A stretch of 37,895 nt of DNA, taken from the IMG/VR virus record IMGVR_UViG_3300021185_003495, positions 1 to 37,895 of that record, one strand, 5' to 3'. Each line of letters begins with the position of its first letter. Positions within the stretch are counted from its first letter, which is position 1. Below are positions 9,662 to 27,673 of the stretch, in pieces. Origin of the DNA: a virus. The notes beneath the pieces were generated by a model, which worked only from the letters and a program-made list of their open reading frames with translations, had not been told where the DNA came from and made no database searches. The translations under genes and the position numbers were made by a program.

Positions 9662-9669
9662 TATTTATA
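9662..9669 (-). promoter_or_regulatory. Late promoter, perfect T4 TATAAATA
   Basis: This minus-strand TATAAATA is an exact match to the T4 late promoter element. It shares its central TAA with the stop codon of the 53-aa gene (9665-9667). It lies 27 nt upstream of the ATG at 9634, with GAGGG between. Confidence 0.7.
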
Positions 9670-11223: not shown

Positions 11224-12441
11224 TTAATGCATGTACTCATCCCAGTCGAACGCTTCCATATCAACGCCGTCTTGGTACATGTCCCATAGTGGAGATAGTT
11301 GTCTTAATTTTTCAACTACATCTAATAATGTATCTGCTGTTTGATCAATATCTTCAATTGTAGTTTGTCTTCCAAAACTAAATCGTATACTACTGTGTGC
11401 TAGTTCGTCTGCTCTGCCCAAAGCACGTAGTACATAACTTGGTTCAAGTGTTGCACTTGTACATGCACTACCGCTACTAACAGCAACATTTTCTAAAGCC
11501 ATAATCAAACTTTCGCCTTCAATAAAATTAAAACTAATATTTAGAATGTTTTTAACTTTGTGATCAAGGCTTCCGTTTAAATATACTTCATCAACTTCGT
11601 TGACTCTTTCTAACAAACGATCATGTAACATATCTACATGTGCTTTGTCTTGATCAAACCTTTCTTTAGCAATTCTATATGCTTCGCCCATTCCTACAAT
11701 TTGATGTGTAGGTAATGTTCCGCTTCTATTGCCTCTTTCGTGTCCGCCGCCGTGCATTTGCGCTCTTATTCTTGAACGTGGCTTACGTCGAATATATAAT
11801 GCTCCTATACCTTTAGGACCATAAGTTTTATGTGCAGACAAGCTCATTAAATTTACAGGAAGTTCTTCTAGATTAATTTTAACTTTACCTGTGGCTTGTG
11901 CAGCATCTACATGAAATACAATTTTCTTATCAAAGCAAAGTTTACCAATGCCTTCTATATCGTTAAGAGTGCCAAGTTCATTATTAATAAACATAATGCT
12001 TACAAGTATAGTATCTTCTCTGATTGCACTAGCAATCATATCTGCTGTAATTATACCGTCGTCATTTGGTTCAAGATATGTAATTTCAAACCCATCACGT
12101 TCAAGTTCTCTACAAGGGTCAAGTACTGCCTTGTGTTCAATTTTACTTGTAATAATGTGTTTGCCGTTTGTTTCGTAGAATTGTGCTGTGCCTTTAATAG
12201 CAAGGTTATCTGCTTCTGTGGCACCACTTGTGAATACAATTTCTCTTGGGTCAGCACCGATAAGATCTGCTACTTGTTGTCTTGCTGTGTCAATTGCTTG
12301 ATCAGCCTCCCAACCAAAACTGTGACTTCTACTTGCTGGATTTCCAAATTCACCTTCAAAGGTAAGGAATTTCCCCATTAAGTCTGCAACTCTGGGATCG
12401 CATGGCGTAGTCGATGCGTAGTCTAAATATATTCTTTTCAT
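11224..12441 (-). CDS. iscS: Cysteine desulfurase IscS
   Basis: This 405-residue PLP enzyme takes sulfur from Cys and hands it as a persulfide to IscU and other acceptors. The length matches bacterial IscS. PLP-lysine Lys205 (SAHK), the active-site loop SSGSACTS with Cys327, and HVDAAQ (His178-Gln182) are intact. The C-terminal LSPLWDMY region resembles the part of IscS that contacts IscU. It is a group I enzyme rather than SufS-like. A near-consensus sigma70 promoter (12462-12490) lies just upstream and gives a leader of about 14 nt with no clear Shine-Dalgarno. iscU follows after 9 nt. Confidence 0.96.
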
Positions 12442-18967: not shown

Positions 18968-19101
18968 TGCGATAACACATTTAAAACAAATAACAATAAT
19001 AACACTGTAGACGTTATTATGCCAACCGTAAACATTTGATTAGTTTTCTTTTTACCTGCTATTAGGCCTAATCTTTTTAAATCTTTTTTAATACTACTCA
19101 T
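18964..19101 (-). CDS. Tiny membrane protein, 45 aa
   Basis: The protein begins [20 protein letters not shown], a basic N-terminus, followed by one membrane span at about 23-43 ([19 protein letters not shown]). It joins gp44 upstream and ferredoxin downstream by ATGA overlaps on both sides, strong support for a real gene. In T4 the gene after 44 is 62, the clamp-loader small subunit; this protein is far too small and hydrophobic to be gp62. Confidence 0.72.
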
Positions 19102-20012
19102 AGTCTTGCCAATTTAATTAGCACTGCGGCTAAGTTAATCTCTGGATCTACGACCAATGTGTGATCTACCAGTCCTTGTTTAATAATTAGCACAGCTTTG
19201 TCTTGTTGCTCGTCATTTCCGAACAATTCAATATTGTCATATAACCAACGATATACTTCTTCCATCTCTTCTGGACGAATTGCACCACATAATAATTTAC
19301 GTGCTTCTTGTATTTTTCCAGCCTTAAACAACTCAACCATATCAAGTTTCCAGTCGCTTTCGCCTGTATCGCCTTCATTAGGCTTATTTAATACGCCGTC
19401 TACGCTATTCATTTGTACAGTGTTGATACACTTACGTAAGTCCGGATATGTTGCTTTTACATATGTATCTAGCGTATCAAGATCTGGAGCAACACCTTCG
19501 GTAATAAGTATTTCAGCGACTCTAGCTGTGAACTCAGTTTGGTCAATTTTAGCAATGTGGAAACCTTGACACCTACTATGCAAAGCAGGTATAATACGAT
19601 TTGGATAGTTACAAGTAAGAATAAAACGAGCAGTAGTATGATACTCTTCCATAACACCACGCAACGCCGCTTGAGCGTTTGGAGATAAGTAGTCAGCTTC
19701 ATCTAGTAATACAACCTTAAAGTCCCCGAATGGGATCATCTGTACAAAGTTTACAATTTTATCGCGAACATCATCTACTGAGTTTGTTCGCGATGCGTTT
19801 ATTTCAAGTATGTCTAAATCATTTAAATCAAGTTCATTAAACAATAATTTTGCAAGTGTTGTTTTACCAATGCCTGCATTGCCACTAAACAGCAAATGCG
19901 GAATAGTCTTGTCTTTAATCCAAGTCTTTACTTGATTGCGTTGTGCATCATCACGAAATACGTAACCATCTACTGTTTTCGGACGATACTTTTCTACCCA
20001 TAAATCTTTCAT
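19098..20012 (-). CDS. 44: Sliding-clamp loader large subunit (T4 gp44-like)
   Basis: This 304-residue AAA+ ATPase of the RFC small-subunit type has Walker A GNAGIGKT (44-51), Walker B LLDEAD (102-107), the SRC motif with arginine finger (146-148) and the N-terminal WVEKYRP signature of RFC and gp44. It loads the gp45 clamp at primer-template junctions for phage DNA replication. gp45 and gp62 are not in this window. The gene overlaps the 50-aa gene before it and the 45-aa membrane gene after it, each as ATGA. Confidence 0.95.
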   Translation of the reverse strand: MKDLWVEKYRPKTVDGYVFRDDAQRNQVKTWIKDKTIPHLLFSGNAGIGKTTLAKLLFNELDLNDLDILEINASRTNSVDDVRDKIVNFVQMIPFGDFKVVLLDEADYLSPNAQAALRGVMEEYHTTARFILTCNYPNRIIPALHSRCQGFHIAKIDQTEFTARVAEILITEGVAPDLDTLDTYVKATYPDLRKCINTVQMNSVDGVLNKPNEGDTGESDWKLDMVELFKAGKIQEARKLLCGAIRPEEMEEVYRWLYDNIELFGNDEQQDKAVLIIKQGLVDHTLVVDPEINLAAVLIKLARL

Positions 20013-20322: not shown

Positions 20323-20494
20323 CCTTTTCAGTATCTTCTTTTTTCTTTCTACGTTTTGTGTAGAAGTTACCTTTATACTCTATATCTTCAGTACGCTTAC
20401 CTTCTTCGCATCTAGTGATCTCGCCGCCTTTCTTCAGATATTCGTTAACTAATCTTTGTGTATCGTCGTCTGTCGTTTTAGGCAGTGGGTTCAT
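20315..20494 (-). CDS. Small charged protein, 59 aa
   Basis: The protein begins MNPLPKTTDDDTQRLVNEYL and continues KKGGEITRCEEGKR, then YKGNFYTKRRKKKE. It looks like a short helix followed by a beta turn and a basic end, a pattern common among small nucleic-acid-binding phage proteins. Its ATG shares a base with the stop of the exonuclease gene (TAATG). Function unknown. Confidence 0.68.
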   Translation of the reverse strand: MNPLPKTTDDDTQRLVNEYLKKGGEITRCEEGKRTEDIEYKGNFYTKRRKKKEDTEKDG

Positions 20495-21030
20495 TATTTT
20501 ATTACTCCGAGTTCTTTATATGCTAATTGTATTGATTTTGATTGATAATATGCATCTGCTAGTGCGTTGTGCAAATCGTTTTGTATTTTTTTACGAGGAT
20601 CTTCTTTACATACACTAAACAGTGTACGACTATCTCTTACTTGCCAAAAGTTATATGGGATTGGCATTGATTTACTACGAAACATATCTTCCATAATAGT
20701 GTAATCAAACCCATAACCTTGTCCCCATAGTACGTCTACGCCAACAGTAAATTTACTAATCTGTTTCAAGGCAGCTTCTACACTAATGGCACCAGTTTGA
20801 TCAAATGCTTCTTCCATAATTTTTGGATCTTGTTTACCCCACCAAGCAATAGTATCGTCACTTGATGTACGTCCTAAACTATCTTGATCGTCAATACAGA
20901 CTTTAAAATACATTTCGCTGTGGGGCTCGCTATCGTCAAAAGGATTAAATTTAACTCCTCCTAAACTTAGTACTGTAGCACCTGGCTTTGTATCAATAGT
21001 TTCTAAGTCGATAGTTGCGTGTATTGCCAT
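20494..21030 (-). CDS. dexA: 3'-5' exonuclease, DexA/Rv2179c-like (DEDD family)
   Basis: The 178 residues have the DEDD exonuclease motifs. Exo I is IDLETID (Asp8, Glu10), Exo II is in GFDYTIMEDMF (Asp109), and Exo III is HNALADA (His154, Asp159), the DEDDh form. The WWGKQDP block after the first third is typical of the T4 DexA / Rv2179c-like family. It should remove nucleotides from 3' ends of single strands; whether DNA or RNA is preferred cannot be told. It lies near the start of the operon with clamp loader and nucleotide enzymes. Confidence 0.88.
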   Translation of the reverse strand: MAIHATIDLETIDTKPGATVLSLGGVKFNPFDDSEPHSEMYFKVCIDDQDSLGRTSSDDTIAWWGKQDPKIMEEAFDQTGAISVEAALKQISKFTVGVDVLWGQGYGFDYTIMEDMFRSKSMPIPYNFWQVRDSRTLFSVCKEDPRKKIQNDLHNALADAYYQSKSIQLAYKELGVIK

Positions 21031-21269: not shown

Positions 21270-21626
21270 TTATTTTATGAATTGTGCTAATTCAGGAGCT
21301 TTCCAGCCCTCTGGTTTAAGTACTTTGCCGTCTTCACGTTTGCGTACTTTGCCTGTGTCTGGATCAATCTTAGCAAAGTTTGTGTCCATTACTTCTTTCC
21401 AGGCCGCTTCGCCATCCCAACCTGCGGCACGTACTGCGCCCATAGTAACAACTAAGATGTCAATTAGAGCATCAAGTTGTTCGACTTTGTCGTTGTCTTG
21501 GATAGCTTCTTCTAGCTCGTCTGTTTCCTCACGGATTAGATCAAGATACATTTTGTAGTTTGCTTCACTTGGTGGTTGGTCACATGCTGTGCCGAATGTT
21601 TCAATATCTTCAAATGGGTTTGTCAT
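21270..21626 (-). CDS. MazG-like nucleotide pyrophosphohydrolase
   Basis: The 118 residues form an all-alpha NTP pyrophosphatase. Metal-binding residues are in IREETDELEEA (Glu33, Glu34, Glu37) and in the second helix EQLDALIDILV (Glu49, Asp52, Asp56), the MazG/HisE/dUTPase-2 pattern. The C-terminal DPDTGKVRKREDGKVLKPEGW, seen in phosphoribosyl-ATP pyrophosphatase-like phage proteins, supports this. It would convert (d)NTPs to (d)NMPs. Marine phage MazG proteins have been linked to nucleotide recycling and to (p)ppGpp, but the substrate here is open. It shares one base with the GroES-like stop. Confidence 0.82.
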   Translation of the reverse strand: MTNPFEDIETFGTACDQPPSEANYKMYLDLIREETDELEEAIQDNDKVEQLDALIDILVVTMGAVRAAGWDGEAAWKEVMDTNFAKIDPDTGKVRKREDGKVLKPEGWKAPELAQFIK

Positions 21627-22054
21627 TACGCTCCGGCTCCAAAATCTTCTGGTCTTACTGATGCTACATCTCCAGCACCGTGCTTATCACCAAATATTGT
21701 ATTACGCGGCTGTTCTTCTTGCCAACCTATTACACTTTCTGCTTCTACTGTTCGCATAGTTTCAATAGTACCGTCTTCTAGTTCAACTTCAAAACCACGT
21801 GTCCATCGTCCGTGTTCAATAAGTATCCAGTTACCGACTTGATACGGATCGACATTTTCATTACCTTTAACAACAACTCGGCCCCAACGAGGCTTAATGC
21901 CTCTATCTTTGCCATCGTCTGATGAGATAATGAGTCCGCCCGCAGTTGTTTGTTCACCAAATTCCATGCTATCAACAATTACACGATTGCGAATTGGACG
22001 TACACTTCCTTTAACTCTCGTGGGGAGGCCCACTGATCCAGCATTGATTTCCAT
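21626..22054 (-). CDS. GroES-like co-chaperonin (gp31-like)
   Basis: In the 142 residues a GroES-type beta barrel can be aligned. VRPIRNRVIV (18-27) corresponds to the first GroES strand, EQTTAGGLII (34-43) to the mobile loop with its GG-hydrophobic GroEL contact, WGRVVVKG (57-64) to RGEVLAVG, and YQVGNWILIEHG (71-82) to VKVGDIVIF. The loop-roof insert and the C-terminal tail (after about 112) differ from host GroES. T4 gp31 plays this role to fold the major capsid protein in host GroEL. It is co-transcribed with the late gene at 22055. A remote-similarity call. Confidence 0.72.
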   Translation of the reverse strand: MEINAGSVGLPTRVKGSVRPIRNRVIVDSMEFGEQTTAGGLIISSDDGKDRGIKPRWGRVVVKGNENVDPYQVGNWILIEHGRWTRGFEVELEDGTIETMRTVEAESVIGWQEEQPRNTIFGDKHGAGDVASVRPEDFGAGA

Positions 22055-22474
22055 TTACGCCTCGCTTTTTGGTACAAAGTTGCCGTCAGCGTCCTCAACC
22101 CAATCTTGATCATCGCCAAATTCAGCAGCCATTTTAGGATCTTCGTCGATACCTTTTTCTTCTACTTTCTTTTGTGCTTTGGTCTTTGTTGCTTTTGCAA
22201 CTGGAGCTGGTACTTCGTCTGGTACAACATTTGCTGAAACTTCGCTAGGCATCGGTTCATCTGGTACAGTATTATTATTTTCATAATATTCACGTACTAG
22301 ATCTTCACGTTTACGAACAATTTTGCCACCTGGGCCTATTTCGTCACCACGTGCATTTACACGAGCATTACCTACTGCTGGTGTAAGTTCATTGCGTTGC
22401 TGTAATTGATCCATGTCAACCATTTTGCCTCGCATAGTTTTATATGTTTTTCTTGCGTTACCTTTTATCGCCAT
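22055..22474 (-). CDS. Conserved acidic phage protein, 139 aa
   Basis: The protein begins MAIKGNARKTYKTMRGKMVD, then LTPAVGNARVNARGDEIGPG and IVRKREDLVREYYE. The second half is Pro/Ala/Glu/Lys-rich and looks disordered, ending EDADGNFVPKSEA. I recognise the first half as conserved in marine T4-like phages. A GATAAATA motif lies 26 nt upstream and there is a GGAG ribosome site, so it starts a late unit with the GroES-like gene. Function unknown; a head-assembly role would fit the neighbour but is not shown. Confidence 0.78.
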   Translation of the reverse strand: MAIKGNARKTYKTMRGKMVDMDQLQQRNELTPAVGNARVNARGDEIGPGGKIVRKREDLVREYYENNNTVPDEPMPSEVSANVVPDEVPAPVAKATKTKAQKKVEEKGIDEDPKMAAEFGDDQDWVEDADGNFVPKSEA

Positions 22475-22500: not shown

Positions 22501-22508
22501 TATTTATC
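22501..22508 (-). promoter_or_regulatory. Late-promoter-like motif GATAAATA overlapping a stop codon
   Basis: Minus-strand GATAAATA shares its TAA (22504-22506) with the stop of the polymerase III alpha-like gene. It lies 26 nt before the ATG at 22474, with CAGGAG between. Confidence 0.65.
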
Positions 22509-23034
22509 TTAAGAACTCTTGATAATCCAGGCCAAACTGGATTGAATCAATTTTGTGTACACCTATTAAGTATAACACATAACTTGCTACAGAACTACCT
22601 CTACCTACACCCCATACAATTTTATTCTCACGCATAAAGTCTACAAGATAGATCATATAGCGTAATAAGTTATGCATATCACGTTTTTTATATTCTTGTA
22701 GTTCTTCCCATATACGATCTTGTACGTGTTGTGGACAAGGTCTTTCTGCTTTGTGTAATACATATTCATATACATTAATGTCTTTGTATTCATCAGGCAT
22801 AAACCATTCACTTTGGCATACACCGTCAAAAGTCTTTTGATCTACGTCTAGTGGAATATACTTTTGTAGTTTGTCTAGACCCTGTTCTTCCATAGCGGCA
22901 TTGAACTTGTCTACATCATCGTCTGCATCGCACAACACCACATGAACTTTATCCGCATGACCGGTATAGATCATATCAATTAAATCTCTATTAGAGAATC
23001 GTGGAATACCTAGAGAGTCTGTTTTTATAAGCAT
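22504..23034 (-). CDS. DNA polymerase III alpha-like fragment
   Basis: Within the 176 residues, the last 40 (VWGVGRGSSVASYVLYLIGV, then KIDSIQFGLDYQEFLR) match the region of bacterial DnaE that carries the GRGSGAGS motif and the I-D-P-x-x-x-x-L-x-F-E-R-F-L helix. The protein stops at EFLR, just before where DnaE has its first two catalytic aspartates. The middle (FMPDEYKDINVYEYVLHK) may also align with DnaE. The frame is complete with its own stop, so it is not simply cut by the window. It may bind nucleotide or DNA without polymerising. I believe similar proteins occur in other marine T4-like phages. Role unknown. Confidence 0.78.
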   Translation of the reverse strand: MLIKTDSLGIPRFSNRDLIDMIYTGHADKVHVVLCDADDDVDKFNAAMEEQGLDKLQKYIPLDVDQKTFDGVCQSEWFMPDEYKDINVYEYVLHKAERPCPQHVQDRIWEELQEYKKRDMHNLLRYMIYLVDFMRENKIVWGVGRGSSVASYVLYLIGVHKIDSIQFGLDYQEFLR

Positions 23035-23043
23035 ACTCGTAGT

Positions 23044-23280
23044 TTAACTTACTTTTATAAGATTGTCAAGTCCTGTTTCGCCATTTTCTTGTTGCTGTTG
23101 TGCATCAAGTTTTTGACGAGCTCTACGACTTTCAAGTTCTAATTTGTAGTCATCAAGAAGTGTCGTGATTTGAGTTTGTACTTGTGGATTTTGTGTTTGG
23201 AAATATCTTCGATTTAACAATATAATTTTGTCTTCAATTTCTTGATCTGTCAAAGATGACGTTCCTTCAAACAACGGATG
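23044..23280 (-). CDS. Conserved small coiled-coil phage protein, 78 aa
   Basis: The protein reads MHPLFEGTSSLTDQEIEDKI, then LNRRYFQTQNPQVQTQI, a helical Arg/Gln-rich part and the end GLDNLIKVS. I recognise the xPLFEG...LNxxYFQTxNPQV...LDNLIxxS pattern from T4-like marine phages. I chose the ATG at 23280, right after the stop of the preceding gene, because the conserved part begins there. Upstream in-frame ATGs (23313, 23427) would overlap that gene. Function unknown. Confidence 0.75.
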   Translation of the reverse strand, partial: HPLFEGTSSLTDQEIEDKIILLNRRYFQTQNPQVQTQITTLLDDYKLELESRRARQKLDAQQQQENGETGLDNLIKVS

Positions 23281-23284
23281 CATA

Positions 23285-23926: not shown

Positions 23927-23934
23927 TATTTATC
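23927..23934 (-). promoter_or_regulatory. Late-promoter-like motif GATAAATA
   Basis: This minus-strand GATAAATAC lies 18 nt before the ATG at 23908 and 4 nt after the stop of the 981-aa gene. A TAGGAG ribosome site lies between motif and ATG. Confidence 0.68.
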
Positions 23935-26906: not shown

Positions 26907-26914
26907 TATTTATC
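26907..26914 (-). promoter_or_regulatory. Late-promoter-like motif GATAAATA
   Basis: This minus-strand GATAAATAC lies 23 nt before the ATG at 26883 and 6 nt after the stop of the 241-aa gene. AAAGGGA follows as a ribosome site. Confidence 0.68.
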
Positions 26915-27665: not shown

Positions 27666-27673
27666 TATTTATT
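27666..27673 (-). promoter_or_regulatory. Late-promoter-like motif AATAAATA overlapping a stop codon
   Basis: Minus-strand AATAAATA, in TTATAATAAATA, overlaps the TAA stop of the giant fibre gene (27672-27674) and lies 19 nt before the ATG at 27646. GGAG lies between. Confidence 0.55.

Follow-up and report, generated by a model that had tools for sequence, protein, structure and literature searches.

Why would a phage keep a gene for a piece of the bacterial-type DNA polymerase III alpha subunit (Pol III alpha) that stops just before the catalytic aspartates? We addressed this question for a minus-strand gene in the window, by which we mean the whole 37.9 kb stretch of viral DNA analysed here. 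A sequence-only reading of the window had offered three explanations: a repurposed nucleotide- or DNA-binding piece, a decoy for the host replisome, or one half of a split gene. Our analysis favours the split gene, which is best supported by a second protein (the C-half) that starts where the first (the N-half) stops, and gives little support to the decoy. Because a separate protein with the catalytic residues was found in every N-half genome tested that is complete or larger than 250 kb, we conclude that the product of this gene is very probably the N-terminal part of a minimal DnaE-type (family C) Pol III alpha core made of two proteins. The features on which the argument draws are as follows.

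19098–20012, minus strand: clamp loader large subunit, T4 gp44-like (AAA, 9.6e-16; DNA_pol3_delta2, 3.1e-13; Gp44_lid, 0.0013), in the same neighbourhood in relatives
21626–22054, minus strand: T4 gp31/GroES-like co-chaperonin (phrog_931, 8.3e-12; phrog_3188, 1.7e-4), in the same order in relatives
22055–22474, minus strand: conserved downstream neighbour with a NARGD motif and no assigned function (phrog_14844, 2.4e-16), in the same place in cultured phages
22501–22508, minus strand: T4-type late-promoter-like motif GATAAATA, which includes the stop codon TAA (GA-TAA-ATA), from a motif scan of the window
22504–23034, minus strand: the N-half, very probably the N-terminal half of a split Pol III alpha, 176 aa (phrog_11127 family; PF07733), conserved at full length in cultured jumbo phages and marine contigs
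22510–22758, minus strand: DnaE-like palm segment of the N-half, residues 93–175 (PF07733 and hhalign matches)
22594–22605, minus strand: GRGS, residues 144–147, the DnaE palm nucleotide-binding motif, found in 172/172 ORFs and invariant in 47/47 aligned sequences
23044–23283, minus strand: conserved upstream neighbour that starts MHPLF and has no assigned function (phrog_15348, 6.3e-06)

The open reading frame at 22504–23034 is present on the minus strand as described, and residues 8–176 of its product matched phrog_11127 nearly end to end (2.2e-43). We ran the DnaE profile search that the sequence-only reading had proposed. Residues 93–175 of the N-half matched positions 12–94 of the 260 in PF07733 (DNA_pol3_alpha) with an E value of 3.1e-12 and a score of 47 bits, the cut-off being 23.9 bits, and a profile-profile comparison (hhalign) against 11 DnaE sequences aligned residues 101–176 with residues 318–393 of E. 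coli DnaE (E 3.5e-13). The reported match to DnaE was thus confirmed, but it covers ~76–83 residues, roughly double the 40 C-terminal residues given originally. After N393, E. coli DnaE reads PERVSMPDFDVD, which contains the first catalytic aspartate, D401, and D403. The alignment ends at residue 393 and D401 lies beyond it, which bears out the proposal that the chain stops just short of the first catalytic aspartate. Because it ends before D401, the N-half does not carry the equivalents of D401, D403 and D555 in one chain, as a full-length DnaE or PolC replicase does. No significant similarity was found between residues 1–90 of the N-half and the N-terminal region of DnaE by profile comparison (E 0.24, as against 0.4–0.9 with shuffled columns).

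We then considered whether the end point of the N-half is a fixed property of the family. The C-terminus lies 33–35 residues beyond the first GRGS residue in 171 of 172 viral ORFs, with a single exception at 17 residues. Based on this spacing and on the presence of GRGS in every one of these ORFs, we conclude that, as judged from sequence conservation, the end point is biologically fixed and is not that of a decayed fragment. The sequence profile of the N-half matched only C-family polymerases in the PDB. The predicted structure of the window's N-half had a mean pLDDT of 80.8, with most of the palm part at ~90 and residues 1–40 averaging below 70; its fold matches were weak, the top four being C-family polymerases at E values of 0.14–1.0, which might be what a half-domain without its sheet would give. 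GRGS stands in a palm context and does not form a Walker A motif (GxxxxGK[ST]). The possibility that the match reflects a generic P-loop-like motif therefore fails: the similarity extends over ~80 residues, the PDB matches of the sequence profile are confined to C-family polymerases, and GRGS is a palm motif, not a Walker A.

The nearest relatives of the N-half in annotated phages are stand-alone proteins of ~170–183 aa from the jumbo phages MIJ3, PA5oct, XacN1, Atu_ph07, RAS14, CBB, GAP32, Vibrio 2.275.O, 121Q and RaK2, and the aligned N-halves of cultured phages share a common end point within a few residues. One of them, CBB_328, has been described as a truncated alpha subunit of 172 aa, compared with 1120 aa (PMC5259590). 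Two scans of viral contigs yielded at least 499 and at least 590 confirmed relatives. In the marine jumbo phage cluster PGC_A, PF07733 was reported in 51.9% (Weinheimer and Aylward, 2022, PMC9123017); this is the same Pfam match as that of the window's N-half, and the part of the paper that reports it does not discuss a split. On the evidence of the two contig scans, the N-half is carried by a common marine phage group.

A split of this kind has been described. In a computational study, Iyer et al. (2021, PMC7824862) presented, for jumbo phages of group 2.2, a "split minimal Pol III alpha" in which separate NTP-binding N and Mg-/template-binding C proteins are encoded by distant genes alongside a family B polymerase; Atu_ph07 is named there. 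What is already known about the split amounts to a few sentences from 2021; elsewhere, in the portions of the literature consulted, the N-half appears as a Pol III alpha subunit, or just as a truncated protein. The sentences on the split in Iyer et al. give neither accessions nor a breakpoint for the two units and do not mention the marine clade of the window. PHROGs annotates both phrog_11127, the N-half, and phrog_11778, the C-half, as "DNA polymerase", as two families without a stated link. Consistent with the published description, the N-half is a stand-alone unit that has the NTP-binding palm motif and ends before the metal-binding aspartates, and the window gene is very probably a new marine member of the described split minimal Pol III alpha.

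Since the split had already been reported, our search for the C-half was a test and localisation of a published claim. We built a profile from the DnaE region downstream of the break. The best ORF was at 115147–115788 in RaK2 (E 9e-4) and at 51184–51801 in MIJ3 (E 3e-6); each genome has one such protein of ~200 aa, and the two are 42% identical. The same profile detected C-halves in Phosso, SCTP-2, Atu_ph07 and Slicko01 with E values of 1e-8 to 2e-5. The C-half, which corresponds to phrog_11778, is about 165–215 aa long across phages and starts at TDIDID or PDIDIDF, equivalent to D401/D403/D405 (the Atu_ph07 member begins MKNIPDIDIDF). It retains the equivalents of H511, K553/D555, RP (639–640) and F-x-K-x-H (756–760, ending in H760). 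Near-invariant in C-halves are DxDxD, the H and G of the KHAGGV segment, K-x-D, RP and F-x-K-x-H; in an alignment of 58 sequences, D16, D18 and D20 are present in 57, and K80, D82, R149-P150 and H190 in all 58. Family C as a whole conserves D401, D403 and D555; D405 is shared by the DnaE groups, but PolC has another residue there (PMC3919608). H760 is a proposed steric gate (PMC8485763). The missing palm part that the sequence-only reading had suggested looking for thus exists in RaK2, MIJ3 and other relatives; none was found within the 37.9 kb window.

Structure prediction gave a clearer answer for the C-half than for the N-half. The model of a marine relative's C-half, built with 52 sequences, had a mean pLDDT of 92.8, and its comparison with the PDB returned Pol III alpha at ranks 1–8 (probability 1.00) and as every match at E ≤ 2e-3. 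The C-half sequence profile had nine PDB matches at E ≤ 1, all of them Pol III alpha and individually weak (best 0.007), and in the best of these the motifs are in colinear order. Pfam gave at most a sub-threshold finger-domain match to the C-half. Similarly, PF07733 matched only the N-half in RaK2, MIJ3, Atu_ph07 and six marine contigs, with no second match; because the C-half is too divergent for this profile, this is not evidence of its absence.

We next examined how consistently the two halves occur together. Both were present in 21 of 21 tested N-half genomes that are complete or larger than 250 kb (RaK2, MIJ3, Atu_ph07, XacN1, RAS14, CBB, GAP32, Vibrio 2.275.O, 121Q, SCTP-2, Phosso, Slicko01 and nine IMG/VR contigs of 256–371 kb), a set that is not fully independent, since some IMG/VR entries are close kin of cultured phages, and in which SCTP-2, Phosso and Slicko01 were chosen by their C-half and then found to have the N-half. 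As in the published system, the genes for the two units are distantly located in relatives, with gaps ranging from 11 kb to more than 200 kb: ~34 kb in RaK2, ~43 kb in MIJ3, ~11.5 kb in Slicko01 and ~230 kb in G003, a linear marine contig of 256 kb whose N-half is 85% identical to that of the window. No fused or adjacent pair was seen in any N-half locus examined. The C-half was found in none of 26 N-half contigs of 43–165 kb (0/26), as a large distance between the genes would lead one to expect, although this is no proof. The Alishewanella phage vB_AspM_Slicko01, at 141 kb below the jumbo limit, has both halves and a family B polymerase that appears to be in two open frames.

Two further features of the published system have counterparts in these phages. 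The sequence-only reading had assumed a T4-like phage that uses a family B polymerase, and relatives support this setting: such a polymerase was found in RaK2, MIJ3, Atu_ph07, five of six marine contigs, SCTP-2, Phosso, Slicko01, G026 and G027, and in every complete or >250 kb N-half genome tested for one. The sole exception among the relatives tested was an 84 kb marine fragment, in which none was found. We detected no other Pol III domains in RaK2 and MIJ3, where the DnaE PHP, thumb, helix-hairpin-helix (HhH), OB and CTD gave no match below E 0.01. The two phage chains together have the bacterial DnaE palm elements GRGS, DxDxD, K-x-D, RP and F-x-K-x-H in the same order. By contrast, bacterial DnaE is a single ~1160-aa chain that includes PHP, thumb, HhH, OB and CTD, whereas the phage chains are of ~176 and 165–215 aa with none of these detected. 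Cyanobacterial DnaE split by a trans-splicing intein (named in PMC3919608) is likewise encoded by two genes, but with intein parts on the halves. The phage halves are short, and each has its terminus right at the break, unlike the intein-bearing cyanobacterial halves. The cyanobacterial break also lies further downstream.

In summary of position, the two proteins are separately encoded, conserved parts of one palm, split at the same loop and jointly retaining the active-site residues, with the break placed between DnaE residues 393 and 401. The N-half and C-half would bind non-covalently and so rebuild one polymerase-beta-type palm, in which, by analogy with DnaE, GRGS of the N-half would grip the nucleotide triphosphate and the C-half would bring the metals and the steric (sugar) gate. 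Because these elements sit on separate chains, the halves would have to meet to work. We infer polymerase activity from sequence, and such activity is not assured, because neither the thumb nor the tandem HhH, both of importance for how known Pol III binds DNA, is present.

The surroundings of both genes suggest where such an enzyme might act. The order phrog_15348, N-half, phrog_14844, GroES-like chaperonin, gp44 clamp loader is common to the window and RaK2-like phages; a phrog_15348 homologue precedes the N-half in RaK2, CBB, GAP32, 121Q and Vibrio 2.275.O, and in MIJ3 and Atu_ph07 the N-half gene is contiguous with a small gene and a chaperonin-like gene, and the clamp loader follows closely beyond these. 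In RaK2, genes for primase and helicase are found downstream of the C-half gene, and in Atu_ph07 a primase/helicase gene comes after it. Because the gp44 clamp loader accompanies the N-half, and gp61 primase and gp41 helicase are close to the C-half, we suggest, with less confidence, that the split enzyme may act on primed or gapped DNA: beside a gp43-type replicase, it could perhaps serve primer extension, gap filling or late recombination-dependent synthesis. As a separate observation, phrog_15348 and phrog_14844 flank the N-half both in the window and in distant T4-like jumbo phages, and may serve the same process.

The same data bear on the competing explanations. The N-half could instead be a stand-alone nucleotide- or DNA-binding accessory, for example in clamp loading or late transcription, with the C-half a separate catalyst or a relic. 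Its own conserved neighbourhood (phrog_15348, phrog_14844, the GroES-like gene and gp44), the lack of DnaE likeness in its first 90 residues and the missing thumb and HhH would fit such a role; however, the halves are found together in 21 of 21 genomes, are broken at the same loop and keep active-site residues on both sides, and a repurposed N-half should have no need of a C-half that is catalytically intact. We consider this explanation unlikely.

It is far less probable that the N-half interferes with the host replisome as a decoy or inhibitor, binding the clamp, tau or primer-template and so blocking Pol III. Its sequence resembles only host-type DnaE, as a decoy's might, but the parts of Pol III alpha that bind the clamp, tau and epsilon lie outside the N-half segment, those for clamp and tau in C-terminal regions that are missing here. 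Moreover, the phages span many hosts, yet the N-half sequence is conserved and its partner is intact. Least probable of all is decay from a full-length phage or host dnaE: the N-half is indeed truncated relative to DnaE, as noted for CBB_328 (PMC5259590), but GRGS is constant, the C-terminus is fixed in 171 of 172 ORFs, gene order is conserved across distant phages and the C-half is intact. The conserved N-half and intact C-half led us to set both the decoy and the decay aside, leaving the two-protein Pol III alpha core as our preferred reading.

Beyond the published description, we provide the exact break (DnaE 393–401), the coordinates of the partner in named cultured phages, the co-occurrence of the halves, and the presence of the pair in marine contigs as well as in a phage too small to count as jumbo, with the N-half in a common marine phage group. 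We found no experimental study of the pair in the literature searched. We give roughly even chances to a broader proposal, that the two small proteins form the smallest known family C core, lacking thumb, HhH and PHP, and take on a DNA-synthesis task of their own next to the family B replicase in many marine and jumbo T4-like phages, where the joining of the halves might serve to switch the enzyme on. If active, a polymerase core without thumb or HhH would bear on the origin of family C polymerases, and on the reason for retaining a bacterial-type core in a phage that already encodes a family B replicase.

The late-promoter-like motif that the sequence-only reading had seen built on the stop codon is present in the window, where GATAAATA at 22508–22501 on the minus strand spans TAA. 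ATAAATA occurs nine times in the window, always on the minus strand; the plus strand has no copy. A motif overlaps the N-half stop codon in 29 of 101 distinct marine relatives and is hence not universal; it probably drives the downstream phrog_14844–chaperonin genes and not the polymerase half. Copies of (G/A/T)ATAAATA at 22501–22508, 23927–23934, 26907–26914, 27666–27673 and 9662–9669, all on the minus strand, each lie shortly upstream of a start codon. Elsewhere on the minus strand of the window, a Rv2179c-like 3'-5' exonuclease gene (PF16473, 1e-32; 20494–21030) lies between the chaperonin and clamp-loader genes, and a class-V aminotransferase (PF00266, 1.7e-82; 11224–12441), possibly cysteine desulfurase-like, is unusual phage cargo. 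Lastly, the C-terminal end of phrog_7513, a family of 461 aa with no assigned function, matches the GRGS palm segment and may be another Pol III protein truncated nearby.
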